From the NCBI GenBank assembly GCA_018241475.1, contig JAFEDV010000449.1, positions 1-33,170 of the forward strand: a DNA stretch of 33,170 nt, written 5' to 3'. Below the pieces are notes generated by a model. It was not told the origin of the DNA and searched no databases. It saw only the letters and a list, made by a program, of their open reading frames with translations. This stretch comes from Pseudomonadota bacterium (GTDB lineage: Bacteria; Pseudomonadota; Alphaproteobacteria; Caulobacterales; Aquidulcibacteraceae). A program made the position numbers and the translations under genes. Below, one piece after another: positions 26,435 through 33,170 of this stretch (positions are counted from its first letter, which is position 1; each line of letters starts with the position of its first letter).

Positions 26435-26519
26435 CTGGGTGGAGGCCCTGGCCGGGTTGGCGTGCGCCGATCCCTGGGAAGCGTGGCGCAAGCAGTCGGG
26501 CCAGCCTACATTCGCTGCG

Positions 26520-27335
26520 ATGCGCTATTTCAAGATGAACGGCTGCGGCAATGATTTCGTCATCCTTGACGCGCGCGCGCGGGGTGCGCTGCCCCTGTCG
26601 GCAGAGCAAGCGCGCGCGATCGCCGACCGCAAGAGCGGGGTCGGCTGCGACCAGGTCATTGCGCTCGAACGGTCGATGCGCGGCGACGCCTACATGCGCA
26701 TCTGGAATGCCGACGGCGGCGAAAGCGATGCGTGCGGCAACGCCGCGCGCTGCGTGGCCTGGCTGCTGATGGAGGAAGGCGGCGCCGTCTCGCGGCGCAT
26801 CGAAACGCCGGCAGGTCTGCTCTATGCGGAGCGCGCGAGCGATCGGGTCATCACGGTTGACATGGGTTCGCCGCTGCTGCGCTGGGAAGAGATCCCGCTG
26901 GCGCGCGCCATGCCTACAGACCGCATGGACTATGACGTCAATGGCCTGCCGGCGCCGGGCGCGGTGAACATGGGCAATCCGCACGTTGTGTTCTTCGTCA
27001 ACGACGTGCGGGCCGTACCGATCGACACGCTTGGGCCGCGCATCGAGCACGATCCGCTTTTTCCTGAGCGGGTGAACGTGGGCTTCGCCGAGGTGCGTTC
27101 GCCGCAACAGATCAGACTGAGAGTCTGGGAACGAGGCGCGGGACTGACCAAGGCATGCGGCACCGGCGCGTGTGCGGCGGTGGTGGCCGCGCATCGGCAA
27201 GGCCGGACCGGGCGCAAGGTCGAGGTTCTGGTCGACGGCGGATCACTTCAGATTGAGTGGCGCGAGGGCGACGATAGGGTTTTGATGACCGGGCCGGTCG
27301 AACTCGAGGGCACGGGGGATTTGGCGGCGGCATGA
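26520..27335 (+). CDS. dapF: Diaminopimelate epimerase
   Basis: DapF interconverts LL- and meso-diaminopimelate without a cofactor, supplying lysine and the peptidoglycan cross-linking residue. The start is the ATG at 26520, giving MRYFKMNGCGNDFVILDAR, the usual N-terminus, and 271 aa; the frame is open 27 codons upstream but that part is not family-like. The two catalytic cysteines are Cys72 (ESDACGNAARC) and Cys213 (TKACGTGACAAVVAA), with MGNPHVVFF and GFAEV as further family segments. lysC in the same pathway lies 25 kb away at the window start; I see no sign that the two are co-regulated. The dapF stop overlaps the next start (ATGA). Confidence 0.97.
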   Translation: MRYFKMNGCGNDFVILDARARGALPLSAEQARAIADRKSGVGCDQVIALERSMRGDAYMRIWNADGGESDACGNAARCVAWLLMEEGGAVSRRIETPAGLLYAERASDRVITVDMGSPLLRWEEIPLARAMPTDRMDYDVNGLPAPGAVNMGNPHVVFFVNDVRAVPIDTLGPRIEHDPLFPERVNVGFAEVRSPQQIRLRVWERGAGLTKACGTGACAAVVAAHRQGRTGRKVEVLVDGGSLQIEWREGDDRVLMTGPVELEGTGDLAAA

Positions 27336-27745
27336 GAGCAAACGCGCTGATCGGAGCCCTGATGCTGGCGGCGTGCGCGACGGGAACGTCGCTGACGCCA
27401 CCACAGCGGCTTGCCGGCTGCTGGATCAACCGCGATGCGGGCGCCGCGCGCATGCGCTGGAGCGAGGGGGCCGGCGGCGGACTTGTCGGCGTCAAGACGC
27501 TATTCGGGATTGCCGGCGTCAACACGACGGAGCGCTATGCGCTTGCGGCTACGGACGGCGGCTGGCGGCTGTGCCGTGTCGATGCGGGCAGCCGTTGCTG
27601 GAACGTCGCGCTGGGCGAAGGCGGTTCGCTGACGGGCGGGCGCGCCTTCATCGACGGCGGCAGCGACTACATGCGCATCGCGGTGATCGGCGACGGACCG
27701 GAGCGCGTGATCTTCCAAGGCCGGCGCGAAGCGTGCCGGAATTGA
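27332..27745 (+). CDS. Small putative lipoprotein, unknown function
   Basis: The 137-aa product begins MRANALIGALMLAACATGTS, a short lipoprotein signal with lipobox L-A-A-C and the lipidated cysteine at residue 15. The mature part has four more cysteines (CWINRD, LCRVDAG, RCWNVAL and the near-terminal EACRN), which could form disulfides in the periplasm, and a strand-rich, glycine-rich composition. I recognise no family. Its ATG overlaps the dapF stop by 4 nt, so translation is coupled to dapF. Lipobox residue +2 is alanine, which in enteric bacteria would favour outer-membrane sorting. Confidence 0.78.
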   Translation: MRANALIGALMLAACATGTSLTPPQRLAGCWINRDAGAARMRWSEGAGGGLVGVKTLFGIAGVNTTERYALAATDGGWRLCRVDAGSRCWNVALGEGGSLTGGRAFIDGGSDYMRIAVIGDGPERVIFQGRREACRN

Positions 27746-27795
27746 TCTTACCGCCTTGAATCGGCATGCTTGCGCGGCGCGCCAAGGGAGATGCG
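27739..27795 (+). promoter_or_regulatory. Shared leader of the tandem membrane-protein genes, copy 1
   Basis: This leader and the one at 28801-28856 share GAATTGATCTT at the 5' end, CGGCATGCTTGC in the middle and a purine-rich ribosome site (AAGGGAG here, AGAGGGG there), with nearly equal distance to the start codon (57 and 56 nt). Copy 1 overlaps the lipoprotein gene's stop codon. The conserved blocks may be promoter or operator parts, or residue of a recent duplication. Confidence 0.5.
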
Positions 27796-28773
27796 GTGAC
27801 CCAACCGCTGAACGCGACGTTCTTCACGCTCAAGCATCGCGATCGCGCGGTGTTGCTGCCGGCGACTATTGTGCTTGTCGCCGTCGCCGCGCTCATTGGT
27901 GCGGCGTTTGCGGCGATCAACTGGAACGCCCTTAGCCAGCTGCCGCAATGGTTCACCATGAGCGTCGCGGACACGAAGGACCCTGAGCACGCCCTGAGAT
28001 TGGTCGGCGGCGTGTTCGGGCTGATAGGCAGTGCGTTTCTGCTGATGATCCCGCTCTATTTGGCATTCGCCGCTTATGAGGCGGCGTGCCTGCGCTGGAT
28101 GATCAGAGGCGAAGCGCCCGGACTGTTCGGCTGGCGTCTCGATCACGACATGTGGCGCGTTTATGGAATCTATTGGTGCTGGTTCGCTGTGCATATGGCG
28201 GTGGGCATGGCGATGAGCATGCTGATCGTGCCGATCATGTTTGCAACCATGCCGGGTTTCTTCACGAGCAGCAGCCCGCCCGACATGATGACCATGATGC
28301 GTTGGCAGTTGAGCGTGCAGCTGTCGCTGTCATTTCTGCAATATGTGCCGTTGATTTTCATGGGCGTGCGGTTCGGCCCTGCGGCGGCGACGTCGATCGC
28401 GCGGCAACGGTTCTCGTTCTTCGAGGCTTGGACGGTGACGCGCGGACGCTTCTGGGAACTGCTTGGATCGTTCGCGCTGTTGTGGCTGATCGCCGGCGTG
28501 CTCATTGCGCTGATTCTCGCGCTCACAGCCGGGCCGCTTCTCATGCACATGTGGCCGCTCGTCGCCGATATGTGGCGGAAGCCATCTGAAGCCAGTATGC
28601 ACGCTTACTTCAACACGATCTTCTCGCCGCAATACCTGCTGCTGTATGGGTTGGGTTATCTCGGGTATTTCGTCGTTCTGCTCGGGCTTGCGCTGATGAG
28701 CTTCGGGGTCAATGCGCGCGCGGCGCTGGCAGCGCTCGAGGAGGGCGAGATCGCCGTCTCTCCCGCCTCGTAA
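27796..28773 (+). CDS. Six-helix membrane protein, paralogue 1
   Basis: I do not recognise a named family. The GTG at 27796 is preferred over the ATG at 27766 because the product then begins MTQPLNATFFTLKHRDR, aligning with the next gene (MAEPLRATFFTFRKREK), and AAGGGAG sits just upstream. The 325-aa product has about six hydrophobic helices (near residues 18-44, 62-95, 122-150, 175-195, 222-248 and 280-305). Two motifs are shared with the neighbour: EAACLRWMIRGE after helix 2, and DMWRVYGIYWCWF leading into helix 3. A third shared block is EAWTVTRGRFWELLGS. Conserved charged and tryptophan residues at the membrane border suggest a transport, enzyme or assembly role, but no activity can be assigned. 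Confidence 0.85.
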   Translation: MTQPLNATFFTLKHRDRAVLLPATIVLVAVAALIGAAFAAINWNALSQLPQWFTMSVADTKDPEHALRLVGGVFGLIGSAFLLMIPLYLAFAAYEAACLRWMIRGEAPGLFGWRLDHDMWRVYGIYWCWFAVHMAVGMAMSMLIVPIMFATMPGFFTSSSPPDMMTMMRWQLSVQLSLSFLQYVPLIFMGVRFGPAAATSIARQRFSFFEAWTVTRGRFWELLGSFALLWLIAGVLIALILALTAGPLLMHMWPLVADMWRKPSEASMHAYFNTIFSPQYLLLYGLGYLGYFVVLLGLALMSFGVNARAALAALEEGEIAVSPAS

Positions 28774-28800
28774 GGTTGCTGGCGGAGGCCCGCCGCGTCC

Positions 28801-28856
28801 AGAATTGATCTTGTCACATTGGGGCGGCATGCTTGCCCCACGCCAGAGGGGATGAC
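28801..28856 (+). promoter_or_regulatory. Shared leader of the tandem membrane-protein genes, copy 2
   Basis: Second copy of the leader described at 27739-27795: GAATTGATCTT near 28802, CGGCATGCTTGC near 28825, AGAGGGG just before the ATG. Here it lies in a true intergenic space, 27 nt after the stop of paralogue 1, so each gene may have its own start signal. Confidence 0.5.
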
Positions 28857-29864
28857 ATGGCCGAGCCGCTCAGAGCCACCTTCTTTACGTTTCGAAAGCG
28901 CGAAAAAGGCGCGCTTCTAGGGGCGAGCATTTCCTTTGGCGTGATGCTCGTCTTGCTCTTGCTCGCATTCGGCGCGGCCGTCTGGGCTGTGATGGGGCAA
29001 GATTATTTCAGCTGGGTTCGGCAAATGGCGGAGATGAACGCCAAGACGACGCCGGGGCAGCTGCCACCAAACTTTGGGCGCATCTTTCTCATCTTTCCGA
29101 TCGAGATGGTGTGGTTGTTCTTTCTGTTCGTCGCGCTCGCCGCGTTCGAGTCGGCCTGCCTGCGCTGGATGATCCGCGGAGAGAGAAGCGGTCCGTTCAA
29201 TCTGCACTTCGGCGCCGATATGTGGCGCGTCTACGGCACATACTGGATGTGGTTTCTCTATATCCTCGGCACGTACATTGTCTTCGTAATTGTGCTCATC
29301 GCCACTGGCGCTATCGGCGCCATCATTGGCGGGCGCGACAATCCAGCGGTGGCGGGGCTGGCTGTGCTTGCGGTGTGCGTCGTCTGGGTGCTGGGCTGGC
29401 TTTACCTCACGGTGCGTCTGGCGCCAGCGGCGGCGACGTCGGTAGGGGTCCGAGAATTCGCGCCGCTGAAAGCGTGGACAGTGTCACGCGGGCGATACTG
29501 GGCGCTGTTCGGCTCATACCTGCTGGTGACGATCCTCTACCTGGTCGCCATCGTCGTCGTTTGGATCGCGTTTTTTGGCCCTATGTACGTGAATGCGTTC
29601 AGCCACATCGACTGGAGTTCGATGGGAAGCGACCCGCAAGGCTTCTCGCGACGGTACAGCGACGCCAATCTCGAACTCATGCGGCAGATGTTCGGTAGTC
29701 CTCTCGCGATCGGGCTCTATGTCGGGGGCCAATTGGCCAACCAGGTGGTCGTGATCCTGTTTTCTCTCGTCCTCTACGGCATCAATGCGCGCGCGGTGAT
29801 TGTTGCGGCCGAAGAAGGCAAGGTGCAGGTCCCAGGCGTCGGCGTGGCGGAGCAGTTTTCGTGA
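28857..29864 (+). CDS. Six-helix membrane protein, paralogue 2
   Basis: This 335-aa protein is a tandem paralogue of the preceding gene. The ATG at 28857 follows AGAGGGG and aligns with the paralogue start; an ATG eight codons upstream falls within the shared leader and is rejected. Shared blocks are ESACLRWMIRGE, DMWRVYGTYWMWF, KAWTVSRGRYWALFGS, LAPAAATSV and, near the C-terminus, YGINARAVIVAAEEG (FGVNARAALAALEEG in the paralogue). Hydrophobic segments again number about six. Its stop is 31 nt from the convergent uvrA stop. The family is not known to me; two divergent copies may have different partners or conditions of use. Confidence 0.85.
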   Translation: MAEPLRATFFTFRKREKGALLGASISFGVMLVLLLLAFGAAVWAVMGQDYFSWVRQMAEMNAKTTPGQLPPNFGRIFLIFPIEMVWLFFLFVALAAFESACLRWMIRGERSGPFNLHFGADMWRVYGTYWMWFLYILGTYIVFVIVLIATGAIGAIIGGRDNPAVAGLAVLAVCVVWVLGWLYLTVRLAPAAATSVGVREFAPLKAWTVSRGRYWALFGSYLLVTILYLVAIVVVWIAFFGPMYVNAFSHIDWSSMGSDPQGFSRRYSDANLELMRQMFGSPLAIGLYVGGQLANQVVVILFSLVLYGINARAVIVAAEEGKVQVPGVGVAEQFS

Positions 29865-29888
29865 TGCGGCGCGCTGGAAGCGCCATCA
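29862..29888. terminator. Weak hairpin between convergent paralogue 2 and uvrA
   Basis: TGAT plus GGCGC (29862-29872, with a 2-nt bulge) can pair with GCGCCATCA (29880-29888) around the loop GCTGGAA. It occupies the short gap between the two stops. No U-run is present on either strand, so a terminator role is tentative. Confidence 0.3.
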
Positions 29889-29895
29889 GCTTGAC

Positions 29896-32879
<2,984 letters not shown>

Positions 32880-32883
<4 letters not shown>

Positions 32884-33170
32884 GCCGCGAGACCGTACGC
32901 GATGCAGGTCATGGAAATTCCAGCCGAGACGTGACGGTTGAAGAGTTCGGGCTGTTCGCCGTCGCGTTGGAAGCCGAGGCCGTAGATCACCGGGGTGAAG
33001 TGATCCCAATCCGGCGCGGCCTCGGCTGCTGCGGGATGCTGCTTGTAGTTCACGACGGCGGCATGATCGGATCTCAGCACGGCGTCGTCGATGTAGGCCT
33101 CGAAGGCTCTTGCAACCGTCTGACCGGATTGGTCGCCGGTGAAGAAAGCGCGCAGATTGTGGACGATGTT
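32880..33170 (-). CDS. DODA-type extradiol dioxygenase (LigB superfamily), C-terminal part
   Basis: The minus-strand frame is open to the right edge of the window, so only the last 96 residues are present. [10 protein letters not shown] near the edge and [19 protein letters not shown] match the C-terminal part of the 4,5-DOPA-extradiol dioxygenase/YgiD family, which are ring-opening dioxygenases acting on catechols. The protein ends [15 protein letters not shown], as these proteins end in a strand with an SMR/SM-like motif. The N-terminal metal ligands lie outside the window, so activity cannot be judged. The GTG at 33080 is internal, not the start. The TGA overlaps the uvrA ATG, so the two genes are likely co-transcribed. 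Confidence 0.83.

Follow-up and report, generated by a model that had tools for sequence, protein, structure and literature searches.

Genes between dapF and uvrA

Two genes encoding related membrane proteins, here called A and B, lie next to each other in the right part of the window, i.e. the whole stretch of 33,170 nucleotides analysed here. Gene A (27796..28773, plus strand) starts with GTG and encodes 325 aa, and gene B (28857..29864, plus strand) starts with ATG and encodes 335 aa; both are assigned as six-helix membrane proteins by homology and by their predicted models. The conserved left neighbour is dapF (26520..27335, plus strand), which matches NCBIfam TIGR00652 with 268.7 bits (cut-off 114.65) and is syntenic in relatives. 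It is followed by a small lipoprotein-like gene (27332..27745, plus strand), an open reading frame that is also syntenic in relatives and matches no Pfam or NCBIfam family over cut-off. The right neighbour, uvrA (29896..33009, minus strand; NCBIfam TIGR00630, 1438 bits), is convergent, and its adjacency is conserved.

The start codons, GTG 27796 and ATG 28857, are set by the homology of the N-termini, M(A/S)E.LNATFF, and the same homology rules out ATG 27766 for A and TTG 28833 for B. The ribosome-binding sites can be read directly as AAGGGAG (27784..27790, plus strand) before A and AGAGGGG (28845..28851, plus strand) before B, and a G-rich stretch is also kept at this position in the leader alignment of relatives. 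Both open reading frames are real, as an earlier note on this DNA had held, and the motifs it listed (ACLRWMIRGE, DMWRVYG.YW.WF, AWTV(T/S)RGR(F/Y)W and NARA) are found in both proteins, which share 35% identity across residues 2-326 of B. A single-sequence query of the draft genome to which the window belongs (2.83 Mb, 79.7% complete) gave A and B as its only members of the family.

Similar leaders precede A and B

The blocks at 27739-27773, before A, and 28802-28836, before B, are identical at 28 of 35 positions, while 100 Markov-shuffled pairs of the two upstream regions gave at best 24 in a 35-mer. A predicted -35 element, TTGATC, is found by leader comparison at 27742..27747 for A and 28805..28810 for B, and a predicted -10 element, CATGCT, follows at 27765..27770 and 28828..28833 after a 17-bp spacer (27748-27764 and 28811-28827), all on the plus strand. 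By the usual distance of 6 bp from the -10 element, as given in PMC8407463, we infer that transcription would start near 27777 for A and near 28840 for B.

The shared leader described earlier stands as far as this likeness goes, and two of its details have to be amended. TTGATC lies 54 nt from the start codon for A and 52 nt for B, two similar but unequal distances, and the second block in its literal form, CGGCATGCTTGC, is not kept even in the nearest relative, where only the core CATNNT is. The genome-wide motif search that had been proposed gave two exact matches of the two-block pattern in the genome of the window, one before A and one before B.

Distribution of the family

We found the family in 27 of 30 genomes of the genus, with no match in G012, G014 and G028. 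The layout of the locus in the genus is dapF, the lipoprotein gene, a variable gene, the family genes and uvrA. dapF and uvrA flank the cluster in nearly all of the 27 genomes; in this check some contigs stop short, and the stretch examined for G006 showed no dapF. The locus has one copy in 14 genomes, two in 10, three in 2 and four in 1, so the idea that the homologues always occur in pairs has to be dropped.

A broad profile detects the family in 181 of 200 genomes sampled from the order Caulobacterales, with up to 7 copies per genome, and in other families of the order its genes are often, not always, near uvrA. The 23 named records bearing the family are metagenome-assembled genomes, filed as Hyphomonadaceae, Caulobacteraceae, Caulobacterales, Alphaproteobacteria or Proteobacteria. 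A search of a plasmid collection gave no match. Our protein alignments cover 51 of 59 relative proteins (A1) and 30 of 33 (A3 and A4).

The leader is conserved before first genes in the genus

The leader was counted in the 27 genomes carrying the family at the dapF-uvrA locus, using the rule TTGAnn-N16..18-CATNNT at most 90 nt before the start and omitting G003b. Of the 27 first family genes 24 have it, as do both spaced second genes (gene B of the window and that of G013), and it is absent before all 14 packed internal copies (gaps -1 to 24 nt). The first genes that miss the rule are those of G005, which has GATGCT for CATGCT, G021 and G025. The chance level of the rule is 0.34% per 90 nt in Markov shuffles, and in these loci it lies upstream of 44 of 4614 ATGs, true leaders included. 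This pattern supports constraint on the short leader, which acts like a functional site, as the earlier note had suspected.

TTGA is invariant in an unanchored alignment of 27 leaders (alignment A5 holds 27 of 29, those of G011 and G021 being omitted); the spacer is weakly conserved and the -10 columns are conserved. We also counted columns over 28 leaders, omitting G003b and G011 (a near copy of G001) and anchoring on TTGA, which is therefore fixed by design in this count. The -10 element has its A in 25 leaders, its T in 25 and its final T in 27, its first base is C in 24, and the base preceding TTGA is A in 27.

The exact site TTGATC-N17-CATGCT has 27 matches in the 30 genomes, of which 12 are at the dapF-uvrA locus. 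The other matches, counted in a test for a genus-wide regulon, are scattered. The looser pattern TTGAY-N18-CATNNT has 17, 17, 20 and 21 matches in four genomes, versus 5, 8, 4 and 6 for the reversed pattern; this enrichment may reflect codon use only, and we claim no regulon from it. Three genomes of neighbouring genera, G098, G030 and G076, have no such leader site, the start chosen in G098 being doubtful. In G117, from a sister genus, one of two family genes (locus L135) has TTGCCC-N17-CATGCT some 30-60 nt ahead of it, possibly a degenerate form of the same leader.

Different genes precede the leader

The leader is retained while the gene before it differs among the genomes of the genus. In most genomes this gene appears by eye to be glyoxalase-like, and the one tested matches PF13468 (4.8e-19). 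It is a pseudouridine synthase in G006 (PF00849, 1.9e-31), a gene without assigned family in G017, and in G008, G009 and G013 its product carries the motif HELAHY or HELSHY, with SprT/M78 matches in G008 that stay below threshold. The lipoprotein gene precedes the leader in G002, G015, G021 and G025, before A of G013 and in the window, where leader B is preceded by gene A itself. In many genomes TTGATC contains the stop codon of the upstream gene; in the window the TGA of the lipoprotein-like gene (27743-27745) falls within the -35 element of leader A.

Unrelated upstream genes in L086 (G008), L068 (G006) and L084 (G001), which are protease-like, a pseudouridine synthase and glyoxalase-like, respectively, share a near-identical tail, S(P/L)(N/K)RD-stop. 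The tail is common to them because their last codons and stop belong to the conserved stretch that runs up to and into TTGATC. In L078 (G018) and L070 (G023), about 60-100 nt ahead of the first family gene, the stop of the glyoxalase-like gene has a leader-like remnant, and a second, intact copy of the stretch comes after it. The arrangement looks like a new leader placed behind an old one.

A and B fall into separate clades

In a tree of 45 rows, from which fragments below 200 aa and rows of other families except G030 were omitted and in which G013 A was cut at 325 residues, A forms a clade with 10 other genes (support 99/98), and B forms a clade of four with genes of G013, G004 and G009 (support 97/94). 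A and B are hence not each other's closest relatives, and we rejected them as recent duplicates. The A clade has five first genes (G002, G019, G020, G013 and the window) and six internal genes without the leader (G008, G018, G022, G023, G024 and G027; gaps -1 to 20 nt), while the B-clade genes of G004 and G009 are first genes carrying the leader. The separate clades and the six leaderless relatives of A do not support the tandem duplication of a gene together with its leader that the earlier note had proposed; on this tree, A and B are old, separately inherited relatives.

The gene order in the nearest relative, G013, assembled from two contigs, is lipoprotein gene, leader, A, protease-like gene, leader, B, third copy and uvrA. 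This order is likely an intermediate, the protease-like gene between A and B having been lost in the window. The simplest account of these two draft genomes would be that A came with its promoter to lie upstream of an older unit of promoter and B, and that the window then lost the gene between them. Within L063 (G013, minus strand, near 918-997), the normal C-terminus of A is missing, and the gene continues into the beginning of the protease-like gene, itself without its usual N-terminus; this is a probable deletion junction.

The leader as a probable promoter

We consider, with a probability of about three in four, that the leader common to both genes is a sigma-70-type promoter, its elements 17 bp apart and its 5' UTR short, which drives the family genes between dapF and uvrA. 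Genus-wide, it would most likely be an ordinary promoter before the first gene of the cluster. RNA polymerase would start downstream of TTGATC-17 bp-CATGCT, giving a 5' UTR of 17-19 nt with a strong ribosome-binding site, and the promoter would drive an operon of one to four related inner-membrane protein genes. The window would hold two transcription units, A and B each having its own promoter, since the B-type promoter is preceded by an A-type gene that also has one.

According to PMC8407463, sigma-70 spacing is most often 17 bp across species with TSS data, and TTG in the -35 element is conserved in most of them. Our leader resembles a housekeeping sigma-70 promoter of alphaproteobacteria in its TTG-led -35 element (the triad is present in both leaders of the window), its 17-bp spacer, and the A2 and T6 of its -10 element. 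It differs in that the -10 element begins with CAT instead of TAT, i.e. the T that is usual, not strict, at the first -10 position of sigma-70 promoters is absent, and the C in its place weakens the housekeeping assignment. It also differs from typical alphaproteobacterial promoters in that nearly all copies retain T at -7, which, according to the same paper, more than 60% of promoters in the alphaproteobacteria analysed lack. A scan with the standard consensus (TTGACA/TATAAT) over 26500-30100 found no promoter.

The promoter could instead belong to an alternative sigma factor, e.g. of the heat-shock type, since its first -10 base is C and its CAT core is like a heat-shock -10. The heat-shock promoter consensus has a CAT-like -10 core together with a C directly before the TTGA of the -35 element, a position where 27 of our 28 leaders have A. 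Moreover, the groES upstream regions of the genus, compared by eye in three of eight fetched loci read in the gene direction, show TTGAC with a CTA-type -10 and not CATNNT, and we regard an alternative sigma factor as unlikely. Sequence alone cannot separate a promoter from a factor-binding site, and the blocks might be contacts of a specific activator or repressor, instead of or atop a promoter and with the upstream stretch TGTCGCCAAnCCGnGATTGATC included. A stretch like it is seen by eye upstream of TTGATC in many relatives and stays similar in G006, G008, G009, G017, G018 and G023 despite different genes or non-coding sequence there, and the exact 12-base site is as rare as given above (27 matches in 30 genomes, 12 at the locus). 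However, the leaders of the window and of G013 are without this stretch, which may be a retained 3' end of the glyoxalase-like gene, and the spacing and the invariant bases suit RNA polymerase better; a regulator site is quite unlikely.

That the second leader is a passive residue of a recent tandem duplication of gene and leader is suggested by the two blocks, which are identical between the two leaders of the window. This is highly improbable for proteins only 35% identical and in different supported clades, with the B-clade genes of G004 and G009 already first genes with the leader and the leader persisting genus-wide. A leader lost in relatives that keep the gene pair had been named as the mark of such a residue: most second genes are indeed without it, but the leader of the first gene is kept, and so the leader is not mere duplication residue. 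An RNA element (attenuator, riboswitch or terminator) could account for a weak hairpin ending just before TTGATC in leader A, but the predicted 5' UTR is too short for one. We found 0 conserved pairs over 27 leaders and no Rfam match for the leader, and its folding energies are within those of shuffles (z-scores -0.65 and -0.28), which makes such an element extremely improbable. Overall, the best reading would be ordinary regulation, by a promoter, of an unnamed, order-wide membrane-protein family, and a suspected regulatory curiosity becomes a testable predicted promoter.

Predicted fold of the family

The predicted models of A (pLDDT 91.4, pTM 0.86) and B (pLDDT 90.2, pTM 0.85) both show six long helices in three hairpins, in agreement with the six helices of the earlier note. 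Structural comparison gave CysZ (Z 12.7), PNS1 (12.3) and CTL1 (10.8) for A, with the next at 6.2, and PNS1 (13.1), CysZ (12.9) and CTL1 (11.9) for B, with the next family at 6.5; among all-helical models, chance alone may yield Z values as high as about 13 or 14. Foldseek found no match with E <0.001 for the models, and the A3 profile had 0 sequence matches at E up to 1 among solved chains, including CysZ and CTL1/PNS1. The structural likeness of CysZ and PNS1 is already published, as PMC13160678 states, which makes their joint appearance here more credible. On balance, A and B probably have a six-helix, three-hairpin fold like that of CysZ and the CTL/PNS1 family.

The predicted likeness to the sulfate permease CysZ (PDB 3tx3, 6d9z, 6d79) covers 204-229 aligned residues with Z 10.6-12.9; the values against 3tx3 and 6d9z, 12.3-12.9, are well above the next unrelated rows and within the chance range for helical models. 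Unlike CysZ, whose solved chains have 213-240 aa, A and B have 325-335 aa, show no detectable sequence similarity to it and are not beside a recognised sulfur gene. The predicted fold is also like that of CTL/SLC44 proteins (CTL1 and yeast PNS1; Z 10.8-13.1, within the chance range for helical models), which, unlike A and B, are eukaryotic and have no sequence match to them.

In PMC13160678, the transport role of CTL is disputed, and CysZ and CTL are without an agreed common function. Going by the fold alone, one might guess that A and B carry a small solute or a lipid through the inner membrane, but this is doubtful. The predicted fold ties the unnamed family both to CysZ and to the choline-transporter-like proteins, whose role is disputed, and an easily knocked-out bacterial relative could help settle the role of the CysZ/CTL fold. 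We speculate, at somewhat below even odds, that the Caulobacterales-wide family, which has repeatedly undergone tandem expansion beside uvrA, represents a bacterial branch of the CysZ/CTL fold whose members share a transport or lipid-handling role, and that in one genus the promoter and the first gene form a unit keeping its 5' edge while unrelated upstream genes, ending inside the -35 element, are swapped.

Profile comparison did not show an internal three-fold repeat in the protein (best probability 50%), and we found no account of the family among the papers listed on DUF898/YjgN, BPSS1780, CysZ and uvrA-linked paralogs. A matches neither DUF898 (PF05987) nor the BPSS1780 family (NF041043), and B reaches 15.4 bits against DUF898, below the Pfam gathering cut-off of 28. 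Among 53 family members, weak profile matches were found to DUF898 in seven (best 1.1e-4) and to BPSS1780 in three (best 6e-4).
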